From assembly GCF_024436435.1 (NCBI RefSeq), contig NZ_JAFMZP010000007.1:183612-247611 (forward strand): a DNA stretch of 64,000 nt, in the 5' to 3' direction. Every line of letters begins with the position of its first letter. Within the stretch, counting starts at the first letter, position 1. The position numbers and the translations under genes were made by a program. The notes below the pieces were generated by a model that was not told the origin of the DNA, did not search any database, and worked only from the letters and a program-made list of their open reading frames with translations. Positions 23,148 through 48,461 of the stretch are shown in pieces. This DNA is from Desertivirga xinjiangensis. GTDB taxonomy: Bacteria; Bacteroidota; Bacteroidia; Sphingobacteriales; Sphingobacteriaceae.

Positions 23148-24368
23148 ATGAAGAAAACTTTACTGCTAGCGCTATTGGCGGGCCTGCTAGGAACTGCAAC
23201 AACAGGCAAAGAAAAGAAATCGGACCGAAAAGCGAAATCGGTTATTATTACAGGTGCTGACCAGACTGACAAATACCTTTCTTATCTGAAAGGTAAGCGA
23301 ATCGGTATGGTAGTGAATCAAACCTCAATAATTGGAAAAACTCATAGTGTCGATAGTCTCAAGTCTCTTGGTGTTAACATTGTGAAGATCTTTGGTCCGG
23401 AGCACGGATTCAGGGGAAATGCCAGTGCCGGTGTGCATGTAGAGGATGAAAAAGATCCAAAGACAGGCATAGAAGTAGTGTCTTTATATGGGAAAAATCA
23501 CAAGCCGTCCAAAGAAAGTCTTTCTAATGTTGATTTAATGGTTTTTGACATTCAGGATGTTGGTGCACGATTCTATACATATATAGCAACCATGCACCGG
23601 GTGATGGAAGCGTGTGCTGAGAGCGGGAAGGAATTGCTAATTCTTGATCGTCCCAACCCCCATGGTTACCTGATCGACGGACCAATTCTTGATATGGCTA
23701 ACAAGTCCGGGATCGGTATTCATCCTGTCCCTATTGCTCACGGAATGACAGTAGGTGAGTATGCTAAGATGATCAATGGTGAAAAGTGGCTGGCTAATGG
23801 TGTGCAGTGTAAAATTACAATCATACCTGTTGCCAATTATTCCCATGATCTTCCTTATGATCTTCCAGTCAATCCTTCCCCTAATCTTAATACTCCCGAA
23901 TCAATTATTCTCTATCCATCGACCTGTCTGTTCGAAGGAACAGTCATCAGTCAGGGAAGAGGTACGTATACGCCATTTACTGTATTAGGGAATCCGCAGC
24001 TGAAAGGGAAATACACTTTCTCATTTACGCCTAAAAGTATAAAAGGAATGAGCGAGACCCCCTTGCATATGAACGAGGAGTGTTATGGTCTTAATTTACG
24101 CAATCAGGAAACCGTTGCTGCTCTCCGGAAGTCAGGAAAAATCAATTTGAAGTGGATGATGGACTTATATGCAGCGTATCCGGACAAAGAAAAGTTTTTT
24201 GACTCAAGTCAAAGTAAGGAAATTGGAAATATCGACAGGTTGGCCGGAGTGAAGCAGTTTAAAGAGCAGATTGTTGCAGGACTTTCTGAAGAAAGAATCC
24301 GAAAAAGCTGGAAAAAAGGCTTGGATGGTTTTAAAAATATGCGGAAAAAGTATTTGATCTACCAATAA
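23148..24368 (+). CDS. namZ: Exo-beta-N-acetylmuramidase NamZ (DUF1343, GH171)
   Basis: A 406-residue exported protein of the DUF1343 family, whose Bacillus subtilis member NamZ removes MurNAc from the non-reducing end of peptidoglycan chains. A hydrophobic signal covers residues 1-20, without a lipobox. Family motifs: GMVVNQTS (~53-60), IFGPEHGFRG (81-90, with Glu85 as a likely catalytic residue), DIQDVGARFYTY (~139-150), DRPNP and QGRGTYTPF. Full family length. In B. subtilis namZ is clustered with nagZ, amiE and murQ, and the same functions follow here, so the assignment is strong. It begins the plus-strand peptidoglycan locus, upstream of susC by 280 nt. Confidence 0.9.
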   Translation: MKKTLLLALLAGLLGTATTGKEKKSDRKAKSVIITGADQTDKYLSYLKGKRIGMVVNQTSIIGKTHSVDSLKSLGVNIVKIFGPEHGFRGNASAGVHVEDEKDPKTGIEVVSLYGKNHKPSKESLSNVDLMVFDIQDVGARFYTYIATMHRVMEACAESGKELLILDRPNPHGYLIDGPILDMANKSGIGIHPVPIAHGMTVGEYAKMINGEKWLANGVQCKITIIPVANYSHDLPYDLPVNPSPNLNTPESIILYPSTCLFEGTVISQGRGTYTPFTVLGNPQLKGKYTFSFTPKSIKGMSETPLHMNEECYGLNLRNQETVAALRKSGKINLKWMMDLYAAYPDKEKFFDSSQSKEIGNIDRLAGVKQFKEQIVAGLSEERIRKSWKKGLDGFKNMRKKYLIYQ

Positions 24369-24493
24369 TTGCTTTTTTGATCCACTTTGTATTCTTGGGA
24401 TCGCAGTTTTGGATTGTGTAGATGGAAATAATAGGAGTTTGCTGTGGATTTTTGCATGTTTTAGCTTATTTGTTGAATTTTTATGTCAATTTC

Positions 24494-24513
24494 TGCGTTT
24501 TTTTGTCGAAAAA
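24494..24513 (+). promoter_or_regulatory. Candidate operator before the SusC gene (10-bp direct repeat)
   Basis: TGCGTTTTTT followed by TGTCGAAAAA, 155 nt before the ATG. The flanked form TTTCTGCGTTTTxTTG is almost identical to the site before namZ. The rest of the 280-nt gap 24369-24648 is AT-rich and shows nothing else I can name. Confidence 0.4.
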
Positions 24514-24648
24514 ATTTGAAAGTTGCAGATTCAAGTATTAAATTTGAAGAAGTATGAGGGGGGGATTCATCTTAAGATACGTTATTATGCCTGTTTGTTC
24601 GTCATTAAAGAAAAATTTAACTATATATAACTCAATCACTAATTTATT

Positions 24649-27600
24649 ATGAAAAGAAGGCTACTCAATTTAATTATGGGTTTGGTCTTGATGTCGCTAA
24701 ACGTAATTGCTCAGGAAAAGGTGATTACAGGAACGGTGACATCTGCCGAGGACGGGCTACCTCTTCCAGGGGTTTCTGTCAAAATAAAAAACTCAGTTCT
24801 GGCTACAAGTACGGGCACTGATGGAAAGTACACCATTCGCGCCACACAGGGCCAAGTTCTGATTTTTTCGTACATAGGCACCCTGACGATGGAAAAGATC
24901 ATTGGTTCAGAAAGTGTGGTCAATGCTGCCTTGAAATCTGATGCCAAGGCTCTTGGAGAAGTGGTTGTTACGGCCTTGGGTATCGAGAGGGATAAAAGAA
25001 CTTTAGCTTATTCCGTCCAGACCGTGAAAGGAGAAGATTTAAGGGAGTCTAATCAGTCAAATATTATTAACGGACTTCAAGGTCAAATTGCCGGAGCGCA
25101 GATCACTTCTTCCGGTGGGTCTCCTGGCCTTCCTTCTGAGATCATCTTAAGGGGCGTATCTTCTCTAAGCGGAGATAATCAACCGTTAATGATCGTGGAT
25201 GGCATTAGGGTCAGTAATGCATCTACAGACGGCACCGTAAACAGGCTTGCTGATTTTAATCCTGAGGATATTCAGGACATCTCTATTTTGAAAGGTGCGG
25301 CTGCCTCTGCGCTTTATGGTATTGATGCAGCGTCGGGTGCTATTATTATTACAACAAAAAAGGGGAAATCAGGAACAACTCAAATGAATGGCTCTTATAA
25401 GTCATTTTTAGAGACGGTCGGTCGTCTTCCGAAGCAACAAAGCTTATATACCTCTGGTACAGGCAGTGGTTTTGACGAGAGTTCTATTTCATCTTGGGGA
25501 AGAAAGTTTAGAAGTGATGAACTCATATATAATAACCTCGACAGATTCTTCGAAACAGGTCAGATTAATGATGTAAACTTTAACGTAAACGGAGGTGCGG
25601 AAAAATACAATTATTACTTTTCTGGTAATTATAGGGATGGTTCCTCTATTATTCCCAATACAAGGTCCGATAAATTATCTGTCTTAATAAAGGGCACCAC
25701 TAAGCTTACGAGAAAAATCGAGTTAACAGCTTCAGCAAATTATATCAACAATAATATTAAGGAAGGTATCGTAGGAGGCAGTTCAGGTGGTTATGCCAAT
25801 AGTATTTATATGTATCCACTACGGTACGATATACAACGATATCAATACGATAATGGTAAGCCCTACTACGAGTACTATGAGAATAGTGGTGTAGAAGAAA
25901 CAGCAAGAATATCGCCTATGTGGGCGATCATGAAAAATGCAAGGAACACAGGAACGCAACGATTTGTAATAAATGGTAATCTCGCCTATAAGCCTGTTGA
26001 CTGGATCAATCTGTCTTATAGAGTTGGACAGGATTTTTATAACCAGGATTATGGCTATGTAACGGTGCCGGGCACACCAGGTTTTATGGATGGCCGTTTA
26101 TACGAAAGTAAAGGAAACTTTATTTATCAAACCAATATATTTAATGCCAGTTTTGACAGAAAGATAAATAATGATCTAAGGGCTACATTAATTTTAGGAG
26201 CTAGTTCAGAGTACTTTGAAGCCAAGACAAATGTTGTTAGCGGTGAGGATTTCGTTGTTCCCGACATTTACAGTGTAAATAATATAGCAGCAGCGAATCT
26301 GGTTTCATCAGAAGGTTTTAGAAGACGGCAGCGATATGCTCTATATGGTGATTTCAAGCTGGACTATAAAAATATGTTGAGCTTAGGGATCACCGGTCGA
26401 AACGACTGGTCGTCTACGTTGCCTCAAGACGCCAGATCTTTCTATTCGCCTTCGATATCAGGTAGTTTTACATTTTCTGAATTGTTTGATAATAAAAATG
26501 AATGGTTTGGAAAGTTAAGGGTTAGTTATGCCAAAGTAGGTAAGGATGCTCCTATCTATGCAACTTATACAAATCTGGTCCCTTATCTCGGAATCGGCGG
26601 AGGTTATCAGAACTTCGCTACCGGAGGTAATCTTCATCTTGTTGCCGAAACGACAGTAGAAAATGAGTATGGTCTTGAATTCAGGTTGTTTAGAAATCGT
26701 TTAAATCTCGAAGCTACATACTATGATAAAGAGAGCCGGGATCAAATAGTAACGGCGAGAGTACCTCTTCCAACTGGTTTTGTTGAACAAACTTTCAATG
26801 TTGGAAAACTTCGAAACCGGGGAATTGAAATGTCTCTAAGCGGAAGTCCGTTTAAGTCTAAAAACTTTACCTGGAATACCACATTAAATGCTTGGAAAAA
26901 TACTTCAAAAATGCTTGAGTTTCCCGGACATATCGAAGTATTCCCTTATACATTCGGTCAGCCGTACACTTCCGCTTACGGAGCATCAATGATCGATAAA
27001 CCGGTGTTGGGTATTGTGGGCAGCGATTATCTGAAAAATGATGAAGGATACACGGTTATCGGCAGTGATGGGTATCCCGTTATCAATCGTCAGGATAACT
27101 CGTTGTATATTGGTAATCGGGAACCTAAGTTTAATATTGGTTTACTGAATAAATTCAGTTACAAAAATCTTAATCTATCCTTTTTATGGGACTTCCGATT
27201 TGGAGGCGATGTTTACAATGCGACCAGATTAGGTATGGTGTCCAGGGGGATCGCCTACGATGTTGGACAGTTGAGAGATCGGGCGTTTGTGTTTAACGGG
27301 GTAGTTGAACAGCCAGATGGTTCCTATGTCAAAAATACTAAGGAGGTTGCGTTAGACTATAACTACTTTGTCAATAATTATACGTCGGTTGGATCCAACT
27401 TTGTCGAAACGGTAAATTGGGCCAGAGTAAGATATATTACACTTGGTTATACTGTTCCAAAAAAATATACTGACAGACTGAAAGTGTCAAGAGTTAGTTT
27501 TGAGTTGTCTGCACAAAATCCGATTCTAATTACAAATTATTCTGGTGGGGATCCGGAAGTGAACAGTGCAGGACCAAATGCAGGAGGGGGAGGAGGCAGC

Positions 27601-27672
27601 ACCATGGGTGTTGATTTCGGTGCAATTCCTGTATCAAGGACTTATTCATTAGGTGTATCAGTTGGATTTTAA
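24649..27672 (+). CDS. SusC/RagA family TonB-dependent outer-membrane transporter
   Basis: A 1007-residue TonB-dependent receptor. Signal peptide 1-22 (NVIAQ); carboxypeptidase-regulatory-like beta-sandwich (~25-95, ITGTVTSAEDGLPLPGVSV); plug domain (~115-225) with the SusC-typical GALGEVVVTALG-like junction and PLMIVDG; then a 22-strand barrel to the end, finishing in a terminal Phe. With the SusD-like lipoprotein 13 nt downstream it forms a nutrient import complex for oligomers. Neighbouring MurNAc enzymes suggest muropeptides or glycan fragments of peptidoglycan as cargo; this is inference from context. Confidence 0.95.
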   Translation: MKRRLLNLIMGLVLMSLNVIAQEKVITGTVTSAEDGLPLPGVSVKIKNSVLATSTGTDGKYTIRATQGQVLIFSYIGTLTMEKIIGSESVVNAALKSDAKALGEVVVTALGIERDKRTLAYSVQTVKGEDLRESNQSNIINGLQGQIAGAQITSSGGSPGLPSEIILRGVSSLSGDNQPLMIVDGIRVSNASTDGTVNRLADFNPEDIQDISILKGAAASALYGIDAASGAIIITTKKGKSGTTQMNGSYKSFLETVGRLPKQQSLYTSGTGSGFDESSISSWGRKFRSDELIYNNLDRFFETGQINDVNFNVNGGAEKYNYYFSGNYRDGSSIIPNTRSDKLSVLIKGTTKLTRKIELTASANYINNNIKEGIVGGSSGGYANSIYMYPLRYDIQRYQYDNGKPYYEYYENSGVEETARISPMWAIMKNARNTGTQRFVINGNLAYKPVDWINLSYRVGQDFYNQDYGYVTVPGTPGFMDGRLYESKGNFIYQTNIFNASFDRKINNDLRATLILGASSEYFEAKTNVVSGEDFVVPDIYSVNNIAAANLVSSEGFRRRQRYALYGDFKLDYKNMLSLGITGRNDWSSTLPQDARSFYSPSISGSFTFSELFDNKNEWFGKLRVSYAKVGKDAPIYATYTNLVPYLGIGGGYQNFATGGNLHLVAETTVENEYGLEFRLFRNRLNLEATYYDKESRDQIVTARVPLPTGFVEQTFNVGKLRNRGIEMSLSGSPFKSKNFTWNTTLNAWKNTSKMLEFPGHIEVFPYTFGQPYTSAYGASMIDKPVLGIVGSDYLKNDEGYTVIGSDGYPVINRQDNSLYIGNREPKFNIGLLNKFSYKNLNLSFLWDFRFGGDVYNATRLGMVSRGIAYDVGQLRDRAFVFNGVVEQPDGSYVKNTKEVALDYNYFVNNYTSVGSNFVETVNWARVRYITLGYTVPKKYTDRLKVSRVSFELSAQNPILITNYSGGDPEVNSAGPNAGGGGGSTMGVDFGAIPVSRTYSLGVSVGF

Positions 27673-27685
27673 CCTCAATTATAAC

Positions 27686-29221
27686 ATGAAAAAAATATTA
27701 AGAACGTTATCGATTATGCTGATAGTGGTGCTTGCATCATGCAGTAAGTTGGATATTAATGTAAATCCGGTGCAGCCGGTAACAACAGAAGCTAATCTTA
27801 GATTACCTGCAATATTGGGTAATATGGCTTATCACATTTACTCCCAGGCCCGTTTCACATCATATCATTCGCTCTATCTAAATAGTAGATACAACAGTAG
27901 CAATAATGGTTACACTGCGCCATTAGTTCACTGGAACTATACTTTAGCACAGAGAATTGGTGCCTGGCGGTGGCATTACTTCGATGTCGGCAGTAATTGT
28001 CTAGGGATGATTGAAAGGGCCGAAAGGGACGGGGCAAATAATTACAAGGGAGTTGGCAAAATAGTGCTTGCTTTTTCTTACCTGACAGCGACCGATGTTT
28101 TTGGAGATATGCCTTATACGGAGGCTTATACAGGTATCTATTACCCTAAATATGATACGCAGGATGTCGTATATGCAGGTGTGTTATCACTGTTAAACGA
28201 AGGTATCGAGGCGCTTAATAGTGCCTCTTCTGCAGATCCGGTTATGGATTCTAGCGCTGATTTGATTTATGGAGGTGACATTAATAAATGGAAAGCTTTT
28301 GCAGAAGCCGTACGAGCCAGACTTTTGTTACATACAGCAAGTTTTGAAAAAAACTACGATGAGGTCCTGGCAGTTACTAATGCTGCTTTAGCAGGGTTTT
28401 CAGACGCGATGTTTAGGTATGCGGAAGCTCCTTCCAGGGATTGGGAAACTAATATGTGGGGCCCGGATATTCCCAGACCTGAGTGGAACTTTGCAGATAT
28501 AACTAACGTCTTAGAATCATCTGTACATACAGATTTCTTTATGAACTATCTTACCGTTAATGATCCTGGATTAAAATATGATCCCAGGTTACTAAAGTTG
28601 ACTACTCCGGGAGTTAAAGGAGTCTATAACGGGGCGATGATATCAGAGGGTCTGGCAGTGAAAAATTGGCCTAAGGATACTCCAGTCCCTGCAATGGAAG
28701 ACTTTGCAAAATTATATAATGGCTATTGGACTTCTGATAATTCTCCTCAGCCATATATCCTGAAAGAAGAACTATACTTTATCAAAGCTGAAGCGGCTTT
28801 TTACCAGAATGATAGAAACACAGCTTTTGAAGCATATAGAGAAGGAATCAGGTTGAACATGGAGAGATTGGGGGTAAGTGCGGGCGAAATCACAGGTTAT
28901 TTATCCTCTTCAAAAGTTAAACACGACGCCTCTGAACTAACGGTAAGCGATATTATGGGGCAAAAATATATTGCGATGTACTTACAGCCAGAAAGTTGGG
29001 TGGATATGAGGAGGTATAAATACAGTGCAAAGGCTTATCCCGGCATTTATTATCCTAAAAATGTGACATCTGATGCTGCCGGAAGATGGCTTCAGAGAAT
29101 GCCCTACGATCCTCAAACAGAACCTATTTATAACCCAAGAGAGTTGGAAAGGCTCGGTGCTAATGCCAGAAACTGGCTATTCGTACCGGTATGGTGGGCA
29201 GAAAAGTCGCAATTAAACTAA
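27686..29221 (+). CDS. SusD/RagB family substrate-binding lipoprotein
   Basis: A 511-residue outer-membrane lipoprotein. Lipobox LASCSK puts the lipidated Cys at about residue 18. The N-terminal TPR-like helices and a C-terminal half with WVDMRRYKYSAKAYPGIYYP fit the SusD/RagB fold that caps the SusC barrel. The ATG at 27686 begins a normal lipoprotein signal; an 11-codon upstream extension would overlap the susC end. It binds the cargo before import. The cargo is not readable from sequence. Confidence 0.93.
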   Translation: MKKILRTLSIMLIVVLASCSKLDINVNPVQPVTTEANLRLPAILGNMAYHIYSQARFTSYHSLYLNSRYNSSNNGYTAPLVHWNYTLAQRIGAWRWHYFDVGSNCLGMIERAERDGANNYKGVGKIVLAFSYLTATDVFGDMPYTEAYTGIYYPKYDTQDVVYAGVLSLLNEGIEALNSASSADPVMDSSADLIYGGDINKWKAFAEAVRARLLLHTASFEKNYDEVLAVTNAALAGFSDAMFRYAEAPSRDWETNMWGPDIPRPEWNFADITNVLESSVHTDFFMNYLTVNDPGLKYDPRLLKLTTPGVKGVYNGAMISEGLAVKNWPKDTPVPAMEDFAKLYNGYWTSDNSPQPYILKEELYFIKAEAAFYQNDRNTAFEAYREGIRLNMERLGVSAGEITGYLSSSKVKHDASELTVSDIMGQKYIAMYLQPESWVDMRRYKYSAKAYPGIYYPKNVTSDAAGRWLQRMPYDPQTEPIYNPRELERLGANARNWLFVPVWWAEKSQLN

Positions 29222-29228
29222 TAAGAGT

Positions 29229-30020
29229 ATGAAGAACTGTAAAATATTTTTATTCGCAATATTAGTGGTTGTTGGTTTGTCTTGTAAGAAGAACAATCCA
29301 ATTGAAGAAATTGGAGCTTTAGGCGGCGGACATAAAGCCCAGTTAAGTGTTTCGTTAAGCAACCGGACTCCTGCTTTAGGAGACATTGTGGTAGTAACAG
29401 CGACAACTTCTCATAAGTCAGATAAAATAACAAAGGTTGAATTTTCACATACGCTATCAGAGAGGTTTGGTATTTATCTGTCATTGGATAACACCGTTAT
29501 TAATACCTGGCACGACACCAATCCAATATTGATTGTCAGAGATACTATTGTGAACAATGATATCTGGAAAACGGTAAGTAGTGGTGCGGCTGATGACTTG
29601 GAAAACTACTATCGTACAAACGAAAATTACTTCGTCATACCGGCCCGATACACATTATTTGCTCAGCGTGCGGGCAAGTACGATCTGGCCGGGCCCGGTT
29701 TGTTGCTACAACTTCCTGATGAAGCGTTTGAGATCTTAAAAAGTCAGTTAGCACGAACTATTAAAGTGTCGGAATATGCAAGGTTATTTCCCACGGCCCC
29801 CGATGGAAACTATGTAATGACAGCGGGTACAAAAACAGCTATTTCTGCCATTGGAAAGGCTTTCTTGCGATCAAATCTCAGTAAACAGAATTTAATTGAC
29901 AATGGCTTAAAGGAGATACATAAAGAAGGAGTGATGGCCGCTTCAGTGAACGTCAGAGTTACCACGGAAAATGGTATAATTAAGGAAACCAGCAACAGTT
30001 TTGAATCGGCATACCAATAG
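29229..30020 (+). CDS. Hypothetical surface lipoprotein in the SusCD operon
   Basis: A 263-residue protein with a lipoprotein signal (VVVGLSCKK, Cys19). I recognise no domain. After a Gly-rich linker the part around residues 35-75 looks like an Ig-like beta-sandwich (LSVSLSNRTPALGDIVVVTA). It begins 7 nt after the SusD stop and is followed after 5 nt by the PKD lipoprotein, so it is part of the same transcript. The position corresponds to that of surface glycan-binding proteins in other Sus-like loci, which is the best guess for its role. Confidence 0.8.
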   Translation: MKNCKIFLFAILVVVGLSCKKNNPIEEIGALGGGHKAQLSVSLSNRTPALGDIVVVTATTSHKSDKITKVEFSHTLSERFGIYLSLDNTVINTWHDTNPILIVRDTIVNNDIWKTVSSGAADDLENYYRTNENYFVIPARYTLFAQRAGKYDLAGPGLLLQLPDEAFEILKSQLARTIKVSEYARLFPTAPDGNYVMTAGTKTAISAIGKAFLRSNLSKQNLIDNGLKEIHKEGVMAASVNVRVTTENGIIKETSNSFESAYQ

Positions 30021-30025: not shown

Positions 30026-31615
30026 ATGAGAAAACTTAGTTTATTATACTTTATATCTTCAATGCTTCTGATGTTTGGTTGCAAGGAAGATGAGGTTTCA
30101 AGGATCGAACCTCAGGGTAATTTCGCAGTGAATTTTACTCTTCCTGAGGGTGACATTACTGCACCAGCAAAAGTTCTGTTAACGAACAGGTCGAAATATT
30201 CAGAAAAATATCTTTGGAAATTTCCCGAAGGTAAGGCCCTTACTAAAGAAGGGTTGGTTGATCGGGAAAGCAGCGAGGCATTAGTGCCGGACACAATTTA
30301 TTATGATTTGCCGGGTGAGTATAAGGTAACCCTTGTAGCCTGGCAGGGCGGTAAAATCGATTCGGTTACAAAATCGGTAAATGTGATTAAGATGCAACCT
30401 CAAATTGTACTGCCTGCTAATATTGGTATTATGGCTGAGGTAGAATTTAGTGCAAATGTCTTTAAATATCCCGGCCAGGAGGGTACTTATTCCTGGGATT
30501 TCGGCGAACCTGGCCTGGTATCTACTGAAGCAAAGCCAAAAGTCACCTTTCAGAATGAAGGAGTTCATACAGTCACTTTAGCCTTTAATGACGGAGAGGA
30601 AACACTGACCACTACAGTGCAGGTAAATGTAAGGGGGGAGTTGACAAAAGCCCTGTACTTTACTGATATAATCACGAAAAAGATATATAAGTATCAGTTT
30701 AAGCAATTGACAGCTCCTGTAACAACTCAATTGCCTCATTCTTTAGGCAGTCATCCATTATCTCTCAGTGTTTATAACGATAGGGTATTTATAACTGAAG
30801 CAGGTAATAACGCATGGTTTATCACCTCCGCTAATGCTGACGGACGCATTTACTCGACTAATTTGGGGGGTACTAATGATATTACGCTCACAACAGCCAC
30901 AGGGATTTATCAGCAAGATCCTTTTGCTCATGAGATTGATCCTGCAACTGGTATACTTTATTTCCTCACCCGGAATTTTAATGTAAGAGCTATTTCGACA
31001 ACAGGACAGGACCTTACGTATCCAACCACTCAAAAGCTCGGTATAGTTGTGGGGAATGCGGCCGGCGTTACCACTGTATTTAATTGGGTAGATGGAGGTG
31101 TCCGGGTTGTGGATGGAGAAATTTGGTATTCAAAACATGCGAACGGTAAAGGATTGTATAGATTCAATTTAACGACAAATGCCTTTTTAGGACGAATTGG
31201 AAGTTTAGAAGAAGTAAAGATCCGCAGTTTTGTGGTAGACTCCAAAAATGGGAAGATTTACTTTTATGTCAATTCGATAGGAGGTAACTTAACTCCAGGG
31301 TTATATCGGTGTGATATCAATGGGGCTAATATTGTTCTTATCGACAATCTTAGTAACCTTAGTCAGGAGGGTAGTGGCACGGAAATTCTTGGCATTACCG
31401 GAATGGCGTTAGATACCGACCCGGATGATGGATCGGCAGGGTACTTATACTATGGATTCAGAGCTGTAACTGATGTAAACAATTTGGGAGCTGTAGTAGG
31501 TACAGGAGCTAATTCTGGAATTAAGAAATATGCGTTAGATGGAAGTAAACCGGCAGAGTTTTTAATTAAGGGTTATGCACCCTATGGAATTGGCATTGAT
31601 CATACTAAAAGATAA
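30026..31615 (+). CDS. PKD-domain lipoprotein with C-terminal beta-propeller-like region
   Basis: A 529-residue lipoprotein (LLMFGCKED, Cys19). One PKD-like sandwich lies at ~30-120 and a clearer PKD domain at ~125-205, with YSWDFGEPG and FQNEGVHTVTLAFNDG. Residues ~210-529 carry repeated strands with LYFTDIITKKIYKY, GKIYFYV and GYLYYGF patterns, as in SMP-30/NHL-type six-bladed propellers. No catalytic motif is visible. It is probably a surface-exposed binding protein of the SusCD system. A stable hairpin follows its stop, which may reduce read-through to the GH18 gene. Confidence 0.82.
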   Translation: MRKLSLLYFISSMLLMFGCKEDEVSRIEPQGNFAVNFTLPEGDITAPAKVLLTNRSKYSEKYLWKFPEGKALTKEGLVDRESSEALVPDTIYYDLPGEYKVTLVAWQGGKIDSVTKSVNVIKMQPQIVLPANIGIMAEVEFSANVFKYPGQEGTYSWDFGEPGLVSTEAKPKVTFQNEGVHTVTLAFNDGEETLTTTVQVNVRGELTKALYFTDIITKKIYKYQFKQLTAPVTTQLPHSLGSHPLSLSVYNDRVFITEAGNNAWFITSANADGRIYSTNLGGTNDITLTTATGIYQQDPFAHEIDPATGILYFLTRNFNVRAISTTGQDLTYPTTQKLGIVVGNAAGVTTVFNWVDGGVRVVDGEIWYSKHANGKGLYRFNLTTNAFLGRIGSLEEVKIRSFVVDSKNGKIYFYVNSIGGNLTPGLYRCDINGANIVLIDNLSNLSQEGSGTEILGITGMALDTDPDDGSAGYLYYGFRAVTDVNNLGAVVGTGANSGIKKYALDGSKPAEFLIKGYAPYGIGIDHTKR

Positions 31616-31622
31616 AAAAACT

Positions 31623-31653
31623 CCATGTTCTCTGTCTAAATCAGAGAACATGG
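31623..31653. terminator. Intercistronic hairpin between the PKD lipoprotein and GH18 genes
   Basis: Perfect 12-bp stem CCATGTTCTCTG/CAGAGAACATGG with a 7-nt loop, starting 8 nt after the stop. No T-run follows on the plus strand (it follows on the minus strand), so partial termination or protection of the upstream mRNA is more likely than full termination. An ATG at 31650 lies in the hairpin. Confidence 0.5.
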
Positions 31654-31667
31654 AAAATTTGAATAAA

Positions 31668-40174: not shown

Positions 40175-41008
40175 ATGACAGAAATTAAGGAATTACATAT
40201 GGAAATTACAACAGAAAGAGACTCTAACTATAAGGATTTAGATAAGATGTCTGTTAGGGAGATTTTAGAGAATATCAACAGGGAGGACAAGACCGTTCCT
40301 GATGCAGTTGAAAAAACAATTCCCCAGATTGAAAAACTAGCAACGGCTGTGGCGGAAAAAATGGCCGACGGCGGTCGCTTGTTTTATATTGGTGCCGGTA
40401 CCAGCGGGCGTTTAGGTGTTGTTGATGCCTCCGAATGTCCTCCAACCTTTGGTGTGCCCTTTGACTGGGTGATTGGAATAATCGCCGGAGGAGATACTGC
40501 AATCCGTAAAGCGGTAGAATTTGCTGAAGATGATACAGAACAAGGATGGCTGGATCTCCTAAAGTATGATATAAACGAAGGCGATGTGGTGGTAGGCATA
40601 GCTGCTTCGGGCACTACTCCTTATGTAATAGGGGCACTGAGAAAAGCAAATGAAAATGGCCTGATCACCGGGTGTGTGGTGTGTAATTCGAACAGTCCTG
40701 TAGCTGCTGAAGCCCAGTTTCCCGTAGAAGTAGTTGTAGGACCTGAATTCCTGTCGGGATCCACCCGTATGAAGTCGGGAACTGCACAGAAGCTCGTGTT
40801 AAATATGCTGAGCACGGCAGTCATGATCAAATTAGGGAGGGTAAAAGGTAATAAAATGGTGGATATGCAGCTCACCAATCATAAGTTATTTGTTCGCGGA
40901 GTAAGAATGATCATGAAAGAAACAGGTCTTGATCAAACTACCTCCACCCAGTTACTGGAACGGTATGGAAGTGTGCGTAAAGCCATTAACGCTAGTGTTC
41001 CCCAGTAA
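40175..41008 (+). CDS. murQ: N-acetylmuramic acid 6-phosphate etherase MurQ
   Basis: A 277-residue SIS-domain enzyme that splits the lactyl ether of MurNAc-6-phosphate to GlcNAc-6-phosphate and D-lactate in the cytoplasm. Motifs: NINREDKTVP (34-43), GAGTSGRLGVVDASECPPTFG in the active site (split here at residues 73-93) with Glu87 and Glu118 matching the two catalytic Glu of the E. coli enzyme, and GSTRMKSGTAQKLVLNM. It is the key marker that the locus handles MurNAc. An ATG at 40199 (MEITTERDSNY) gives the more usual N-terminus and is equally possible. Confidence 0.96.
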   Translation: MTEIKELHMEITTERDSNYKDLDKMSVREILENINREDKTVPDAVEKTIPQIEKLATAVAEKMADGGRLFYIGAGTSGRLGVVDASECPPTFGVPFDWVIGIIAGGDTAIRKAVEFAEDDTEQGWLDLLKYDINEGDVVVGIAASGTTPYVIGALRKANENGLITGCVVCNSNSPVAAEAQFPVEVVVGPEFLSGSTRMKSGTAQKLVLNMLSTAVMIKLGRVKGNKMVDMQLTNHKLFVRGVRMIMKETGLDQTTSTQLLERYGSVRKAINASVPQ

Positions 41009-41078: not shown

Positions 41079-42587
41079 ATGTCTCCAATAGTTTTATTAT
41101 CATTTTTAATAGGATACTTTGCTGTCCTAATCCTTATTTCAGCGATAACCTCGAAAGGAGCGTCGGATAACTCAAGCTTTTTTATTGCTAACCGGAATTC
41201 CAAATGGTATTTCGTGGCATTCGGTATGATTGGAACCGCACTTTCAGGGGTAACGTTTATATCGGTCCCCGGAGCCGTTTTCAACAGCGGCTTTGGTTAT
41301 TTTCAGTTTGTGCTTGGCAATGCCGTAGGTTTTGTTATTATAGCCACCGTACTGTTGCCTCTATATTATAAGATCCATCTCATCTCCATCTATACTTACC
41401 TTGAAAAACGCTTAGGTTTCTGGAGTTATAAATCCGGTGCTATGATCTTCTTAATTTCCCGGACCATTGGCTCGGCTTTTAGATTATACCTGGTAGCAAT
41501 CGTCCTGCAAAAGTTCATATTTGATGCGTGGAATGTCCCTTTTTGGGCAACTATCACGATTTGCCTGGTTCTGATCTGGTCATATACCTACAAAGGGGGC
41601 TTAAAAACCATTATCATCACAGATACCCTGCAAACGGTATTTTTACTGTCTTCCGTAGTGCTTTCCATTTATTTTATATCTAAAAGTTTAGACCTGGATC
41701 TGGCACAGACGTTCGAAACAGTTAAGAACAGTTCCTATTCAAAAGTTTTCTTCTGGGAGGACTTCTTTAGCAGTAAGAATCATTTCGTTAAGCAGTTTTT
41801 AGGCGGCGTTTTCGTGACGGTAGCTATGACGGGCCTGGACCAGGATCTGATGCAAAAGAACCTTAGTTGTAAGAATATTGGTGAAGCCCAAAAGAACATG
41901 CTGACCTTTACATCTGTATTCCTGGTTATCAACATCTTCTTTCTGAGTGTTGGCGCTTTGCTTTATCAATACGCGGCTGCTAAAGGGATCGATGTAAGTA
42001 CTCTCGCCACTCCGGATCATCTTTTCCCTGAAATTTCACTGAACTATCTGGGAATGGCTCCGGCAATCATCTTTATGCTTGGCCTGACAGCGGCTACGTT
42101 CGCTACAACAGATTCAGCCCTGACAGCCCTGACTACTTCCTTTTGTGTAGATTTTTTAGGGTTTGATAAGAAGAAGGATCAGAACGATGCATCGCTGGTG
42201 AGGACCAGGCATATGGTGCATGTGCTGTTTTCTTTTGTGATGTTGCTTGTGATCCTGGTATTTAAGGTTATTAACAACGACTCTGTGGTAAATGCCATTT
42301 TTAAAGCCGCAGGATACACTTATGGGCCTCTTCTTGGCTTATTTGCATTTGGAATGATTACAAAACGAAAAGTGACTGACAAGTATGTTCCATATATTTG
42401 TATTTTGTCTCCGATAATTTCGTATTTTATCGATTATAACTCGTTAAGCTGGATAGGCTACTCCATTGGATTCGAACTAATAGTGATCAATGGTTTAATA
42501 ACTTATGTCTTTCTATGGCTTAACAGTAAAAAGAAGATGAAAGAAAAGGAATATTTCGGCGTGCCGGAGGTAGCCGATTTAAATTAA
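41079..42587 (+). CDS. Sodium:solute symporter, candidate MurNAc importer
   Basis: A 502-residue inner-membrane protein with about 13 hydrophobic segments and SSS-family features (FFIANRNSKWY, GTALSGVTFISVPG, SYTYKGGLKTIIITDTLQ). It follows murQ after 70 nt and precedes the D-lactate dehydrogenase by 16 nt. In Tannerella forsythia a transporter gene (murT) next to murQ imports MurNAc; as I recall it is also of this type. I infer MurNAc, a MurNAc-peptide or amino-sugar uptake here, but the family also carries sugars, sialic acid and proline. Confidence 0.9.
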   Translation: MSPIVLLSFLIGYFAVLILISAITSKGASDNSSFFIANRNSKWYFVAFGMIGTALSGVTFISVPGAVFNSGFGYFQFVLGNAVGFVIIATVLLPLYYKIHLISIYTYLEKRLGFWSYKSGAMIFLISRTIGSAFRLYLVAIVLQKFIFDAWNVPFWATITICLVLIWSYTYKGGLKTIIITDTLQTVFLLSSVVLSIYFISKSLDLDLAQTFETVKNSSYSKVFFWEDFFSSKNHFVKQFLGGVFVTVAMTGLDQDLMQKNLSCKNIGEAQKNMLTFTSVFLVINIFFLSVGALLYQYAAAKGIDVSTLATPDHLFPEISLNYLGMAPAIIFMLGLTAATFATTDSALTALTTSFCVDFLGFDKKKDQNDASLVRTRHMVHVLFSFVMLLVILVFKVINNDSVVNAIFKAAGYTYGPLLGLFAFGMITKRKVTDKYVPYICILSPIISYFIDYNSLSWIGYSIGFELIVINGLITYVFLWLNSKKKMKEKEYFGVPEVADLN

Positions 42588-42603
42588 AAGATTAAATTAC
42601 TTA

Positions 42604-45417
42604 ATGGAAATAGCAAGTCTTCTTGAGTCCGTATTACCTAAAGAAAGAATAAAGTCACGGCTAATTGATGTGGTGGCTTATGCTTCAGACGCCGGCTTTT
42701 ATTACCTGCGCCCTAAAGCAGTGGTCCAGCCAGTCTCTAGAGAAGAGGTAGCTGGCCTTTTTCACTTTTCACACCAGCATAGAATTCCCCTTACTTTTCG
42801 CACAGGTGGCACCAGTTTATCGGGACAGTCAATTACGGATGGCATTCTGGTAGATTTAAGTCAGCATTGGAACAGGGTTATTGTAGAAAACGACGGACAT
42901 TCAGTCAGGGTTCAGCCGGGAGCTATCGGCGCAATAGTGAATGCGTACCTTAGAAAGTCCGGCCGAAAGATCGGCCCTGATCCTTCCAGTATCAATTCGG
43001 CGATGATGGGAGGGATCCTATCCAATAACTCAAGCGGAATGTGCTGTGGGGTAAGCAAAAACTCTTACCACACTACAAAATACATCAGGTTCATTCTTCC
43101 TAATGGCTTTAGTTTTTCTACAGAAGAGCCCGCTGATTATGAGAGGTTCAGAGTAGAGTGCCCTGCTATTTATCAGGAAATTGAATTGCTTAAAACTTCG
43201 CTGAGGACGAATCCAGCTATCCGTGATCGGATCAGGGCTAAGTATAAAACGAAAAATACGGTAGGTTACTCTGTAAATGCATTTATAGATTATGATGAGC
43301 CGCTGGATATTCTCGCTCATCTTATGATCGGAGCAGAGGGTACTTTGGGCTTTATTGCAGAGGCTGTTTTGGATACGGTGCCCGATTACCCTGCAAAGTC
43401 AACGGCTTTAATGTATTTTCCTGATATTTATGCTGCATGCCAGGCTATTGTGCCTTTGACAATAACAGGAGCAGAGGCGGTTGAACTAATGGACAGGGCT
43501 TCCCTAAGGTCAATCGAAGATATTAAAGGTGTTCCTGCCTTTTTTAAAGAACTTCCGGAAGGTGCCGCGGCGCTGTTGGTGGAATATCAGGGGCACAATC
43601 TGGAAGAACTGCAGCTAAAAGTTGACCGCTTCCTGGAACTTTCTTCCGAGCTGCGGCAACTTAATAGACCCTTGTTTACCACGGATCCGGCGGAGCAGGA
43701 TTTTCTTTGGAAGCTGAGGAAAGGAATGTTTCCGGCAGTAGGGGCTGTGCGTGCAAGCGGAACCACTGTTATCCTGGAGGATGTAGCATTTCCGGTGGAG
43801 CGTTTAGGTGATGCTATTTTAGAGCTGCAACAGCTTTTCATAAAGCATAAGTACGATAATGCTATAATATTCGGTCATGCTAAGGATGGCAATATCCACT
43901 TTGTGGTTACCCAGGCTTTTAATACTCCCTCGGAAATTACACGTTATGATGCATTTCTTAAGGATGTGGTCAGCCTGGTTGTTGAACGGTATGGCGGGAC
44001 GTTAAAAGCTGAGCATGGTACAGGCCGTAATATGGCTCCATTTGTTGAAACCGAATGGGGGCCGGAAGTATACCAGGTCATGAAACGTCTTAAACAGGTT
44101 GTAGATCCGGAGAACCTGCTTAATCCCGGCGTTATCATTAATGAAAATAAACAAGCGCATCTCCACAACCTGAAAGATCTGCCAAGTGTAGAGCCAGAGG
44201 TAGATAAATGTATGGAGTGCGGCTACTGCGAACATAAATGTCCGAGCAGGGATATCACACTCACTCCGCGCCAGCGAATTGTTGTGCGGAGAGAACTGGT
44301 GAAGCTTAAAGAAACTGGTCGCTCGGCTAGCCATAAGGAACTTTTGCAGCAGTATCAGTATGACGGAATGGACACTTGTGCTGTAGACGGCATGTGCGCT
44401 ACCGCTTGTCCGGTCGATATCAATACAGGCGAACTGATCAAGCGATTGCGCCGTGAGAGTCATAGTCCAATAGCAAATAAAGTAGCTCTTATCGCTGCGA
44501 AGAATTTTGGAACGGTGGCAGGCACTGTAAAAGTAGCTCTTAGAGCCGGTGCCGGCATTAATGCAGTATTTGGCAGAAATACTTTGAGAGCACTTACCAG
44601 CGGCGTGAAAAAGGTTATTCCGGCTGTGCCCTTATGGAGTAACCAGATAAGGACTACCTCAAATATTCCGAGGCAAAATGTTTCAAAGGCTGAGGCAAAG
44701 GTGGTTTATTTTCCTACCTGCATTTCGCGGGTGATGGGTGGTACGCCAGAAGGGAAGAAGAATTTAATCGAAACCTTTGCCAGTGTTTCTGCTAAGGCTG
44801 GTCTGGCTTATATGATACCAGAGAACATTGCGGGAATGTGCTGCGGTCAGATATTCTCTTCAAAGGGATTCAGTAAAGCTTTCGAACATACAGCTAACTC
44901 CATCATCAGCAATGCCTGGGAATGGACAAATGCCGGGCAGCTGCCTATTGTGTTGGACATCACCTCCTGTACCCAAACCCTGCAAGCCTGCCGGCCAGTG
45001 CTTAGCCCGGAGAACCAGGAGAAGTTTGATAAGCTACGCATTATTGACAGCATTGATTACCTGATGGAATTTATTTTGCCGAAGGTTACGGCGAAAAAAA
45101 CCAAACCGCATATTGCCCTGCATCCGGTATGTTCTTTAAAAAAGATGGGGCTGGAAGGAAAGTTTGTGAAAATTGCCCGCCAGTTTGCTGACGAGGTAGA
45201 GATCCCATTGCACGCAGGCTGCTGCGGAATGGCCGGTGACCGTGGATTTTTGTTTCCGGAATTAACCAAAGCTGCTACAGCAAAGGAGGCTGCGGATTTG
45301 AAGTCGCGGGATTATGACGGATACTATTCTTCTTCAAAGACCTGCGAAATTAACCTGTCGGACGCTGTGGGGAAAAATTACGAATCAATAATCTACCTGG
45401 TTGACGAATGCTGCTAG
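42604..45417 (+). CDS. FAD/4Fe-4S D-lactate dehydrogenase (Dld-II type)
   Basis: A 937-residue fusion. FAD-binding PCMH domain (~35-260; TFRTGGTSLSGQS, GADGTLGF-like MIGAEGTLGF), FAD-oxidase C-terminal domain (~265-515; FGHAKDGNIHF, AEHGTGRNMAPF), two ferredoxin-like clusters (Cys536/539/542/546 and Cys592/598/602), and two CCG domains (GMCCGQ at ~760 and GCCGMAGD at ~870). This is the membrane-associated quinone-linked D-lactate dehydrogenase architecture; glycolate or 2-hydroxyglutarate oxidation are alternatives. Next to murQ, which releases one D-lactate per MurNAc, D-lactate is the obvious substrate; that link is inferred. Confidence 0.92.
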   Translation: MEIASLLESVLPKERIKSRLIDVVAYASDAGFYYLRPKAVVQPVSREEVAGLFHFSHQHRIPLTFRTGGTSLSGQSITDGILVDLSQHWNRVIVENDGHSVRVQPGAIGAIVNAYLRKSGRKIGPDPSSINSAMMGGILSNNSSGMCCGVSKNSYHTTKYIRFILPNGFSFSTEEPADYERFRVECPAIYQEIELLKTSLRTNPAIRDRIRAKYKTKNTVGYSVNAFIDYDEPLDILAHLMIGAEGTLGFIAEAVLDTVPDYPAKSTALMYFPDIYAACQAIVPLTITGAEAVELMDRASLRSIEDIKGVPAFFKELPEGAAALLVEYQGHNLEELQLKVDRFLELSSELRQLNRPLFTTDPAEQDFLWKLRKGMFPAVGAVRASGTTVILEDVAFPVERLGDAILELQQLFIKHKYDNAIIFGHAKDGNIHFVVTQAFNTPSEITRYDAFLKDVVSLVVERYGGTLKAEHGTGRNMAPFVETEWGPEVYQVMKRLKQVVDPENLLNPGVIINENKQAHLHNLKDLPSVEPEVDKCMECGYCEHKCPSRDITLTPRQRIVVRRELVKLKETGRSASHKELLQQYQYDGMDTCAVDGMCATACPVDINTGELIKRLRRESHSPIANKVALIAAKNFGTVAGTVKVALRAGAGINAVFGRNTLRALTSGVKKVIPAVPLWSNQIRTTSNIPRQNVSKAEAKVVYFPTCISRVMGGTPEGKKNLIETFASVSAKAGLAYMIPENIAGMCCGQIFSSKGFSKAFEHTANSIISNAWEWTNAGQLPIVLDITSCTQTLQACRPVLSPENQEKFDKLRIIDSIDYLMEFILPKVTAKKTKPHIALHPVCSLKKMGLEGKFVKIARQFADEVEIPLHAGCCGMAGDRGFLFPELTKAATAKEAADLKSRDYDGYYSSSKTCEINLSDAVGKNYESIIYLVDECC

Positions 45418-45430
45418 ACTTATAACTCAC

Positions 45431-45462: not shown

Positions 45463-45473
45463 CATAATTCACA

Positions 45474-47393
45474 ATGTCAAGATTAAATCTTTTAGAAGAA
45501 ACACGGTTTGAAAAACTGCCCGTTACAGTCTTTCCTGACGAAAGCACGGCATCAAAAGTTATTGCGCGCAGAATTGCTGATTTGATTCTTGCGAAACAAA
45601 AGACAGGCGAAAAAGCGGTATTAGGTTTGGCTACCGGCGCCTCGCCGGTCAGGGTGTATGCCGAGCTGGTGCGGCTTCACCGGGAAGAAGGTTTAAGCTT
45701 TAAAAACGTTGTTACTTTTAACCTCGATGAGTATTATCCAATGAACGCTGATGCAGCTCAAAGCTATGTCACGTTCATGAATGAGAACCTTTTCAGTCAT
45801 ATCGATATTGATATGGCTAATGTACATATCCCGGATGGTACTCTTCCACTCGAGAGAATTACGGAGTTTTGTCTTGATTATGAAAATAAGATCACTTTAT
45901 TCGGTGGTTTAGACCTTCAGATCTTAGGTATTGGTCGTACGGGACATATTGGTTTTAACGAGCCTGGTTCGGCCCCCAACTCTGGTACGAGGCTGGTGAC
46001 CCTTAACGATCTTACCAGGCGGGATGCGTCGCGTGACTTTGGGGGAAAAGAAAACGTTCCTACCAAGGCGATCACCATGGGGATCGGAACCATTTTCAAA
46101 GCCCGGGAAATCATCCTGATGGCCTGGAATAAGAAAAAGGCAGGGATCATAAAGAAAGCTGTGGAAGGCGAAATTTCCTCAGAAGTGCCTGCAACGTACC
46201 TGCAGTTATCGGATAATGTCGAATTTATCGTTGACCAGGATGCAGCCTCAGAATTGACGCGCTTTGATACCCCATGGCTGGTGAAAGATTGTGCATGGGA
46301 GAAAGGATTAATTAAGAAAGCGGTTATCTGGTTGGCAAGAACATTACAGAAACCAATCCTGAAGCTAACGGAAGAGGATTATAATAATCATGGGATGGCC
46401 CAGCTGGCGACTGAAAAGGGGCCGGTATACAACATCAATATAGATATCTTCAACCAGATCCAGCATACGATCACCGGCTGGCCGGGTGGAAAACCAAATG
46501 CAGACGACACCGACAGACCTGAGCGCGCAACTCCGGATAAAAAGCGGGTGATCATCTTTTCACCTCATCCGGATGATGATGTGATCTCCATGGGAGGGAC
46601 ATTTATTCGGCTGGCAGATCAGGGGCATGATGTTCATGTGGCTTACCAGACTTCCGGAAATACAGCCGTTTGGGATGATGAAGCTTTGCGTTTTGTCGAG
46701 TTTGCCATCGACTTTATAAAAGTTCAGGGCTACAACTCCGGTGATCTTGAATCCTTATATCAGAACATGCGTGAGTTTCTTGCCAAGAAACTACCAAATC
46801 AAACTGATATAAAAGAGATACAAACGGTAAAAGGGCTTATCCGGAAAGGTGAGGCTATAGCCGGAGCGAGATTTGCAGGCCTGCCGGATGATCATATTCA
46901 TTTTATGGCACTTCCTTTTTATGAGAGGGCCAAGACTGAGAAAAGGCAAACTACAGAGGATGATGTGAGGATTACCATGGAGCTTCTGCAAAAGGTGAAG
47001 CCTCATCAGATATTTGCCGCTGGCGATTTTGCTGATCCGCATGGAACGCATAAAGTTTGCTTTGACATCATTCTGCAGGCAATGGACAGATTGCGTGAAA
47101 CCGAAGAGTGGACTAACGACTGCTGGTTATGGATGTACCGGGGCGCGTGGCATGAATTTGAAACTCATGAAATAGAAATGGCTGTTCCTTTATCACCACA
47201 GGAAGTGGAAAGAAAACGGAATGCCATATTCAAGCACCAGTCGCAGAAAGATATACCTGTATTTCCGGGCGATGATGCACGTGAGTTCTGGATAAGAGCC
47301 GAAGACCGAACCCGCGAAACAGCAAGAGCTTATGATGCTTTAGGACTGGCTGATTACGAAGCGATGGAAGCTTTTGTAAGGTGGAAGTTTTGA
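45474..47393 (+). CDS. nagB: Glucosamine-6-phosphate deaminase fused to a PIG-L deacetylase domain
   Basis: A 639-residue cytosolic fusion. Residues ~1-290 are an NagB-type isomerase/deaminase: GLATGASPVRVY, NLDEYY with Asp85, and GIGRTGHIGFNEPG with His158 and Glu163. Where E. coli NagB has catalytic Asp141 (Asn in some homologues) this protein has Thr156. Residues ~355-580 are a PIG-L/LmbE deacetylase domain with HPDDD (365-369) and DPHGTHK. The second domain could remove the N-acetyl group that classical NagA would take, so the chain could turn GlcNAc-6-phosphate into fructose-6-phosphate alone. The fusion is common in Bacteroidota; the deacetylase substrate is inferred. Confidence 0.93.
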   Translation: MSRLNLLEETRFEKLPVTVFPDESTASKVIARRIADLILAKQKTGEKAVLGLATGASPVRVYAELVRLHREEGLSFKNVVTFNLDEYYPMNADAAQSYVTFMNENLFSHIDIDMANVHIPDGTLPLERITEFCLDYENKITLFGGLDLQILGIGRTGHIGFNEPGSAPNSGTRLVTLNDLTRRDASRDFGGKENVPTKAITMGIGTIFKAREIILMAWNKKKAGIIKKAVEGEISSEVPATYLQLSDNVEFIVDQDAASELTRFDTPWLVKDCAWEKGLIKKAVIWLARTLQKPILKLTEEDYNNHGMAQLATEKGPVYNINIDIFNQIQHTITGWPGGKPNADDTDRPERATPDKKRVIIFSPHPDDDVISMGGTFIRLADQGHDVHVAYQTSGNTAVWDDEALRFVEFAIDFIKVQGYNSGDLESLYQNMREFLAKKLPNQTDIKEIQTVKGLIRKGEAIAGARFAGLPDDHIHFMALPFYERAKTEKRQTTEDDVRITMELLQKVKPHQIFAAGDFADPHGTHKVCFDIILQAMDRLRETEEWTNDCWLWMYRGAWHEFETHEIEMAVPLSPQEVERKRNAIFKHQSQKDIPVFPGDDAREFWIRAEDRTRETARAYDALGLADYEAMEAFVRWKF

Positions 47394-47438
47394 CAGGAGG
47401 ACTAGTTTAGCACATGCGGCACGCGTTCGCTAAACTAT

Positions 47439-47471
47439 GTGCCGAGATGCAATTTTCGGCACCCTTTTTTT
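47439..47471 (+). terminator. Terminator of the peptidoglycan locus
   Basis: Stem GTGCCGA (47439-47445) / TCGGCAC (47456-47462), then CC and seven T. A strong intrinsic terminator 45 nt after the nagB-fusion stop. Confidence 0.85.
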
Positions 47472-47475
47472 ATTT

Positions 47476-47564
47476 CGTCGTCATCCTGAACTTGTTTCAG
47501 GACCTCTTGCCTGAGCAGTTCCAGGCATAGCTCAAAAGGTGCCGAATAAATTCGGCATGACGAT
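47476..47564. repeat. Dispersed-repeat-like element with TCGTCAT...ATGACGA ends
   Basis: The segment begins TCGTCATCCTGAAC, contains the small hairpin CCTGAAC-TTG-TTTCAGG, and ends CGGCATGACGA, so the outer 7 bp are inverted. This motif family (CGTCATCCTGAACTTG...) is, from memory, frequent between genes in Bacteroidota and other phyla. No second copy is in this window. Confidence 0.45.
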
Positions 47565-47639
47565 CAACTATGACAATCAATTAATGACAATACGTTACGA
47601 GAATAGACAGTTGCTTTAATCACCCTTTATATCGCTTGC

Positions 47640-47664
47640 TGGCGCACGCAGCACACGTGCGCCA
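47640..47664. repeat. GC-rich palindrome sharing a 12-mer with the chrA-dnaB gap
   Basis: TGGCGCACG, 7-nt loop, CGTGCGCCA. The flanking 12-mer GCTGGCGCACGC recurs at about 59719-59730 after the chromate transporter gene. Confidence 0.5.
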
Positions 47665-47717
47665 CTGGCTAGCTTTATCTGTCTACTATCGTAAATCGTA
47701 ACTTCCAACTTGTATAT

Positions 47718-48461
47718 CTAAATAACTTCTATACTTTTCGAATATCCCTTTACCGAATCATTATGCGGGTCAACGTCTGTTATCAGGTAATGAACTGAAC
47801 CTAATGGACATACCGTCATCTTTTGTACAGAGTTAAGTTTTTCAGCAATACTAACAATAGCCGTTTTTTGAGAGGATTTGATCATCGCTTTTTTTACCTG
47901 TACCACTTCCCAGTCAGAATCAGTAACACCTTCATCCACAGATAATCCATTGGTTCCAAGAAGGCAGAGGTCCGCTTTAATTTCACTTAGCTGATTGATC
48001 ACCTGTGCACCGGTATTGATGTGGCTGTCTTTAGAAAGTCGTCCACCAATAAGGATCACATCCAGGCTGGATCGTTCTGCCATCTCTAATGCAACCAGCG
48101 GACTCACGGTAAAAAATGTTCCAGTAAGATGCTCCGGCATGTTCCTGGCTACTTCAATCATTGTAGTGCCGCCTCCGGCAAGGATCACCATTCCATTATG
48201 CATCAGTTTGGCTACCTTTTTTGCTATTTCTTTTTTGGAATCTCTCGCATAGGTGTCTGCGGGCTGAAAAGGGTAATTGAAGGATTTAGAAAGCGCCCCG
48301 CCATATACTTTCAGCACTTTACCTGTTTCTGCCAACTCATTTAAATCCCTTCTGATAGTGTCTTCGGATACACTTAACTGAATACTTAGGTCGGATGAAA
48401 GTACCTTATTGTGCAGATTTATCTGCTTCATTATAAAAGCCTGGCGTTCTTCTTTTAACAT
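47718..48461 (-). CDS. DeoR family transcriptional regulator
   Basis: A 247-residue regulator: N-terminal winged helix (~5-55; SSDLSIQLSVSEDTIRRDLNEL) and a DeoR-C sugar-phosphate sensor domain (~75-235; ILAGGGTTMIEVARNM, LLGTNGLSVDEGVTDSD). DeoR proteins usually repress catabolic genes and are released by a phosphosugar; MurNAc-6-P or GlcN-6-P would fit here. It faces the peptidoglycan locus convergently from its far end, so control of that locus is inferred from position. A perfect palindrome just upstream of its own ATG is a likely autoregulatory site. Confidence 0.93.
   Translation of the reverse strand: MLKEERQAFIMKQINLHNKVLSSDLSIQLSVSEDTIRRDLNELAETGKVLKVYGGALSKSFNYPFQPADTYARDSKKEIAKKVAKLMHNGMVILAGGGTTMIEVARNMPEHLTGTFFTVSPLVALEMAERSSLDVILIGGRLSKDSHINTGAQVINQLSEIKADLCLLGTNGLSVDEGVTDSDWEVVQVKKAMIKSSQKTAIVSIAEKLNSVQKMTVCPLGSVHYLITDVDPHNDSVKGYSKSIEVI

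Follow-up and report, generated by a model that had tools for sequence, protein, structure and literature searches.

Here, we describe a run of 14 genes on the plus strand (positions 23148-47393) of a 64,000-nucleotide stretch of DNA, hereafter the window, from Desertivirga xinjiangensis, a relative of Pedobacter. The families encoded suggest that this locus is probably a peptidoglycan-directed polysaccharide utilisation locus (PUL), which would import and catabolise cell-wall fragments. In order, the run encodes NamZ, SusC, SusD, a lipoprotein that we call LipoA, a lipoprotein with a PKD domain, a glycoside hydrolase of family GH18, a phosphoesterase-propeller fusion, an NlpC/P60 peptidase, an epimerase, a NagZ-serine hydrolase fusion, MurQ, a sodium:solute symporter (SSS), an FAD/Fe-S dehydrogenase, and a NagB-PIG-L fusion. 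Pfam and NCBIfam profile searches of the window proteins confirmed every gene named in the original prediction, with its order, strand, and family, including a DeoR-family gene that lies on the minus strand and converges on the run; the starts of SusD and GH18 were corrected to 27686 and 31668, which are the most likely starts and in neither case that of the longest open reading frame. All catalytic motifs looked for are intact (GH18, NagZ, serine hydrolase, MurQ, NlpC/P60, epimerase, and NagB/PIG-L). Bacterial cell walls are an abundant source of carbon and nitrogen, and among the nutrient importers of Bacteroidota, SusCD systems have been studied best.

The import front end carries the hallmarks of a PUL. 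The SusC/RagA TonB-dependent outer-membrane transporter (24649-27672, plus strand; TIGR04056, 562.7 bits, cut-off 368.25) and its SusD-like_2 lipoprotein partner (27686-29221, plus strand; Pfam 4.6e-46; lipobox LASC) are encoded in tandem across 24649-29221. Three further genes on the same strand complete the block. LipoA (29229-30020) belongs to no Pfam or NCBIfam family, has nine other homologues in a large protein search, and is modelled as a predicted immunoglobulin-like beta sandwich (predicted local distance difference test, pLDDT, 80.7). By fold comparison, this model resembles arrestin C-domains and the biofilm protein RbmA. The PKD lipoprotein (30026-31615; Pfam PKD 4.4e-12; lipobox MFGC) is followed by GH18 (31668-32708; Pfam 1.2e-41; motif DGIDIDWE; model pLDDT 87.7), a predicted lipoprotein whose lipoprotein cysteine is invariant in 21/21 aligned sequences, the window's own included. 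Lipoprotein-type signals are predicted on SusD, LipoA, the PKD protein, and GH18, consistent with a predicted surface location, and glycoside hydrolase families (GH18, GH3, and NamZ) are co-encoded with SusCD. A predicted local regulator, as is typical of PULs, stands beside the locus: the DeoR-family protein (47718-48461, minus strand; Pfam/NCBIfam), a candidate repressor.

The original prediction held that the locus joins a Sus-type importer to both an N-acetylmuramic acid (MurNAc) set and an L-Ala-D-Glu set, and all of the corresponding families are indeed present, on the plus strand. NamZ (23148-24368; NamZ_N 4.5e-79, NamZ_C 6.9e-32; PDB 4jja, 6.6e-110) is a predicted secreted member of the exo-beta-N-acetylmuramidase family. 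NagZ (GH3) is fused to an AmiE/PBP4B-like serine hydrolase of beta-lactamase fold (37176-40130; motifs KHFPGHG, TDALEM, and SVTK, the last of SxTK type), and its GH3 half matches the YbbD structure 3bmx (6e-62, residues 48-565). NagZ, the predicted AmiE-type amidase, and NamZ would together make up a muropeptide rescue set of the Bacillus subtilis type. Of 23 genomes from other families among 60 relatives, most have full-length matches to the fusion. Within the window's own family, NagZ and the serine hydrolase are separate genes in most of those genomes.

The stem peptide is the probable target of two adjoining genes, 2 bp apart, that by family form a Ykf-type pair. The first encodes a YkfC-like SH3-NlpC/P60 peptidase of the gamma-D-Glu-diamino acid endopeptidase type (34809-36026; NLPC_P60 and SH3 domains; motif DCSG), with structural matches to PDB 3npf (3.2e-72) and 3h41 (1.3e-23). 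The second encodes a predicted L-Ala-D/L-Glu dipeptide epimerase of the enolase superfamily (36029-37159; motif KVK), which matches PDB 1jpd, an L-Ala-D/L-Glu epimerase, at 1.2e-33, and PDB 3iji at 4.1e-149; the latter is entered as a muconate cycloisomerase, and we take it to be a Bacteroides dipeptide epimerase. Secretion signals are predicted on NamZ, NlpC/P60, and NagZ-AmiE, and the epimerase has a twin-arginine motif at its N-terminus.

The remaining genes of the run encode predicted inner-membrane and cytosolic steps. MurQ (40175-41008, plus strand; TIGR00274, 322.7 bits, cut-off 302; motif DASE) is a MurNAc-6-phosphate etherase, an enzyme whose products are N-acetylglucosamine (GlcNAc)-6-phosphate and D-lactate. 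Next to it is the SSS symporter (41079-42587, plus strand; Pfam SSF 4.3e-22), a candidate MurNAc importer. A second symporter elsewhere in the genome (G000:C19:774509-775978) is 79% identical, and no other locus gene was found within 20 kb around it. The FAD/4Fe-4S dehydrogenase of D-2-hydroxyacid type (42604-45417, plus strand; FAD_binding_4/FAD-oxidase_C and 4Fe-4S) is of the GlcD/GlpC type; its score against the YdiJ model (209.7 bits) is far below the cut-off of 1350, and matches outside the window's family are only 25-38% identical. Because of its GlcD/GlpC type and its place near MurQ, D-lactate is its candidate substrate, and the enzyme probably disposes of the D-lactate that MurQ releases; its recurrence near MurQ in other genomes (12/19 loci, below) supports this. 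The original prediction missed both this fit and the absence of a MurNAc kinase from the locus. NagB, a glucosamine-6-phosphate deaminase (Glucosamine_iso) fused to PIG-L (45474-47393, plus strand; PRK02122, 1046.7 bits, cut-off 384), ends the run. MurQ, the dehydrogenase, and NagB have no obvious signal sequence by eye.

We find that the grouping of SusCD, NamZ, and MurQ recurs across genera and families. The window and 18 further MurQ loci of interest (19 in all) were compared with 20 other MurQ loci, the presence of genes near MurQ being scored by bit-score limits that we set. Loci of interest were selected for GH18 or NamZ near MurQ, or for a MurQ that is either a second copy or closely related to that of the window. 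The grouping around MurQ exceeds chance, and the synteny of NamZ, SusC, SusD, and MurQ that the original prediction had proposed as a check was borne out: SusC is near MurQ in 17/19 loci of interest versus 1/20 controls. The same holds for SSS (16/19 versus 0/20), SusD (15/19 versus 0/20), DeoR (13/19 versus 0/20), the FAD/Fe-S gene (12/19 versus 0/20), NagZ (11/19 versus 1/20), and GHL10 (7/19 versus 1/20); the NlpC/P60-epimerase pair is found in only 3/19 loci of interest. The contrast for NamZ (15/19 versus 0/20) is partly circular, since NamZ was among the selection criteria and controls were drawn from MurQ copies without a listed NamZ nearby. A random draw of controls within the family could have included loci with NamZ and SusC, such as those of G005, G016, G018, G020, and G029, and the controls saw less DNA (stretches of 13-20 kb, one of 41 kb) than the loci of interest (20-46 kb).

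The cleanest subset consists of 10 loci from a 247-genome sample of the phylum, chosen solely for NamZ within about 25 kb of MurQ. These neighbours were picked by eye among the matches listed, which contain at least 10 such loci, with G145 (67 kb apart) excluded. SusC is near in 8/10 of them, SSS in 7/10, and the FAD/Fe-S gene in 6/10; in two (G108 and G178), both SusC and SSS are lacking nearby. A further five single-MurQ genomes, chosen because MurQ adjoins a symporter, all have NamZ and SusC near.

Recurrent loci also carry other genes. In P. arcticus, a GHL10 gene lies between GH18 and MurQ; we take Escherichia coli DigH to be of the same family. According to the accessible part of its description, DigH cuts denuded glycan strands (PMC12288456). 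By eye, G001 has an additional serine-hydrolase-like gene between NagZ-AmiE and MurQ (L092:17874-19127), and in G030 the interval from SusCD to NagZ-AmiE contains GH20, GH9, and polysaccharide deacetylase genes (L097:15269-19838).

From protein families and signal sequences at each step, the following route may be proposed. GH18 would cut glycan strands at the surface, and the pieces would enter by way of SusCD and the two lipoproteins. In the periplasm, NagZ-AmiE would remove GlcNAc and strip the peptide, NamZ would free MurNAc, and NlpC/P60 would trim the peptide to L-Ala-D-Glu, which the epimerase, probably exported by the twin-arginine pathway, would convert to L-Ala-L-Glu. The SSS symporter would move MurNAc over the inner membrane, where a kinase encoded elsewhere would phosphorylate it. 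MurQ would then split MurNAc phosphate into GlcNAc-6-phosphate and D-lactate, the FAD/Fe-S enzyme may oxidise D-lactate to pyruvate, and NagA (encoded elsewhere; two proteins of the genome score over the cut-off) and NagB would complete sugar breakdown. The predicted end products are a glycolytic sugar, pyruvate, and amino acids. DeoR may repress the locus until a sugar-phosphate appears.

Several results weigh against a peptidoglycan-directed PUL, the first of which concerns this route and the others two rival explanations. A MurNAc kinase was looked for in the window and none was found. Two BadF-type kinase candidates lie on contig C11 of the same genome and share 40% and 32% identity with a Parabacteroides ATPase whose gene sits directly before murQ; the PF01869 model scores these proteins below its cut-off. 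In G280 and G288, a BadF-type kinase gene stands beside MurQ.

The better of the rivals is that the locus recycles the cell's own wall turnover; SusCD would then recapture leaked fragments and feed them back into central metabolism. In favour of this reading, the catabolic enzymes are of families known from recycling, two of which are near universal: MurQ occurs in 56/60 relatives, and NamZ in 236/247 genomes of the phylum sample. Moreover, the locus copy is the sole MurQ in at least nine genomes with such a locus (G021, G017, G280, G288, G005, G016, G018, G020, and G029), so in those relatives one MurQ would serve both recycling and catabolism. These sole copies make recycling slightly more probable in our estimate, and the peptidoglycan-directed PUL slightly less so. 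Against recycling, the window's own genome has a second MurQ (C25, 71% identical, its neighbours by eye unrelated to wall breakdown), a second NamZ (C11, 68%), a separate NagZ (C20, 40%), and serine hydrolases on C1 and C2 (41%). A second MurQ is likewise present in 11 of the 15 genomes with G handles among the 17 SusC-bearing loci, and none of the 20 control MurQ loci has SusD, SSS, DeoR, or the FAD/Fe-S gene nearby.

The MurQ tree also separates the window's lineage from the genome's other copy. The window copy clusters with locus copies from six related genomes, with support of 95/86. Second copies were available for five of these seven genomes, D. xinjiangensis included, and all fall outside the cluster. 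The tree requires four label changes, compared with a mean of 13.5 after shuffling (0/500 shuffles as low), and the locus copies overall are not a single clade. Because copies of MurQ, NamZ, NagZ, and the serine hydrolase exist outside the locus, we infer that in its own genome the locus would be dedicated to catabolism, with a separate set for recycling. For the same reason, outside wall material is the more likely input there, rather than the cell's own turnover. Recycling as the role of the locus thus seems unlikely to us.

The second rival, which we regard as a little less probable again, is that the SusCD-lipoprotein-GH18 front end imports chitin or another GlcNAc polymer and that the neighbouring MurNAc genes form a unit of their own. 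The solved structures nearest to GH18 are chitinases, including one that belongs to a chitin utilisation locus, and the comparison of sequence and fold fails to separate chitin from peptidoglycan as substrate; GH18 could be a chitinase. Relatives of SusD include a SusD-like protein named BT3984, NagB would serve any GlcNAc polymer, and the block is flanked by gaps of 280 and 214 bp.

The distribution of the block bears directly on this question. GH18 at E <= 1e-85 was found in 21/251 genomes, of which 17 were inspected (all except G347, G426, G351, and G409). The window-type block SusC-SusD-LipoA-PKD-GH18 is present in 13 of these and in S. corticibacterium (L006), making 14 genomes (P. arcticus, L005/G377, counted once); in G497 and G425, the block SusC falls at or past the edge of the DNA covered and was not seen. 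Conservation of the SusCD-GH18 part apart from the MurNAc genes had been named beforehand as grounds for rejecting the original prediction. Two of the 14 genomes, G429 and G369, do have the block without MurQ or SSS in the approximately 60 kb searched around each; in both, DeoR adjoins it, and genes for NagB-PIG-L and GHL10 lie upstream. No other result speaks as strongly against an obligatory link between the window-type front end and MurNAc. In the other 12, spanning several genera, MurQ and SSS adjoin the block. Furthermore, a different SusCD pair replaces the block beside the same MurNAc genes in G001, G030, and G021, other SusCD types stand beside MurNAc genes in other families, and both kinds are present in G019, G497, and G425. 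The SusCD front end is therefore exchangeable.

It is very improbable that the locus is limited to free MurNAc and short peptides, small soluble products freed by the enzymes of other organisms, with GH18 in a side role: the 20-21 kb stretches of S. corticibacterium and P. arcticus do have SusCD, GH18, MurQ, and SSS with no NagZ-AmiE, NlpC/P60, epimerase, or NamZ seen, but the window has a full hydrolase set that includes predicted secreted exo-enzymes, and SusCD systems usually import oligosaccharides.

A peptidoglycan-directed PUL therefore remains our preferred reading of the window. If it is correct, these are the genes with which such bacteria would eat foreign walls, NamZ-SusCD-MurQ becomes a marker set for genomes, and the recurrent FAD/Fe-S gene predicts specifically what becomes of the D-lactate that MurQ releases. 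A broader proposal, to which we give even chances, is that these loci form a widespread Bacteroidota system for feeding on necromass. It would combine a constant MurNAc core (NamZ, MurQ, the symporter, and often NagZ, the D-lactate dehydrogenase, and DeoR) with a SusCD front end exchanged to match wall types and with built-in disposal of D-lactate and, in some cases, D-glutamate. In many genomes, this system would stand beside separate recycling enzymes.

Spacing between adjacent genes of the run is 2-70 bp with two exceptions, NamZ-SusC (280 bp) and GH18-phosphoesterase (214 bp, with the assumed GH18 start), so one to three transcripts covering the 14 genes are plausible. A putative Bacteroidota promoter, TTTG-N-TAnnTTTG, lies ahead of susC in the 280-bp gap (24515-24546, plus strand); the pattern occurs three times in the window versus 2.36 expected from shuffles, and location alone supports this instance. 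Between the PKD gene and GH18 is a 14-pair hairpin (31621-31655) with its T run on the minus strand, a pattern that does not fit a terminator of the operon. The calcineurin-like phosphoesterase (Metallophos) fused to a PQQ-type beta propeller (32923-34800, plus strand; Pfam/NCBIfam) has, to our knowledge, no known role in wall breakdown. Fusions of this type are near MurQ in 11/19 loci of interest, the window included, versus 0/20 controls. Adjoining DeoR is a gene for an M49 peptidase of dipeptidyl peptidase III type (48556-50598, minus strand).

The locus resembles several known systems. Bacillus subtilis has a murQ-murR-murP-amiE-nagZ-namZ operon and ykfABCD, and thus shares with the window MurQ, NagZ, an AmiE-type enzyme, NamZ, and peptide enzymes of the YkfB/YkfC type. 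It has no outer membrane and takes up its substrate by a phosphotransferase system, whereas the window has SusCD, SSS, a fused NagZ-AmiE, and both sets in one locus. In the comparisons that follow, we take ybbC to be the older name of namZ, and GH171 to be the NamZ family. Tannerella forsythia, also of the Bacteroidota, scavenges foreign MurNAc with ampG-ybbC-murTKQ, described as one transcript, which shares ybbC, a MurNAc transporter, and MurQ with the window and includes a kinase (PMC5388701, PMC7670621). The genes named in the available parts of these reports include no susCD, GH18, or epimerase (PMC5388701, PMC7670621). The AmpG and MurK of T. forsythia are both absent from the window, and the AmpG model TIGR00901 has no match in the window's own genome.

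Single components have precedents as well. RmNag3 of Rhodothermus marinus is described as an active GH3 beta-N-acetylglucosaminidase with a C-terminal beta-lactamase-fold domain, the architecture of the window's NagZ-serine hydrolase; such fusions were thus already known (PMC6987092). Unlike the window gene, that of RmNag3 has, in the account available, no adjacent glycoside hydrolase genes (PMC6987092). The Flavobacterium johnsoniae chitin utilisation locus, as named in the title of PDB 6xyz, has a GH18 of the same fold that is 28% identical to the window's; compared with what that title conveys, the window locus differs in its enzymes for MurNAc and the stem peptide.

In the open-access literature, we found one murein PUL, drawn from its genes (work in subscription journals may be missed): an approximately 27-kb locus of a Urechidicola symbiont whose substrate its authors, in the part of the paper available, leave unknown (PMC10199937). 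As in the window, its genes include susCD, deoR, a sodium cotransporter, murQ, nagB, an L-Ala-D/L-Glu epimerase, GH3, GH18, and GH171. Its two susCD pairs, ampG, bioF, ampD, dacA, nhaC, and GH10 were not found among the window's 14 genes, while its legend lists neither the NlpC/P60 peptidase nor the FAD/Fe-S dehydrogenase that the window has (PMC10199937). This kind of locus is thus already known from Urechidicola. To this, our analysis adds recurrence against controls, the exchangeable front ends, additional recycling-type enzymes elsewhere in the genome, and branches for D-lactate and L-Ala-D-Glu.

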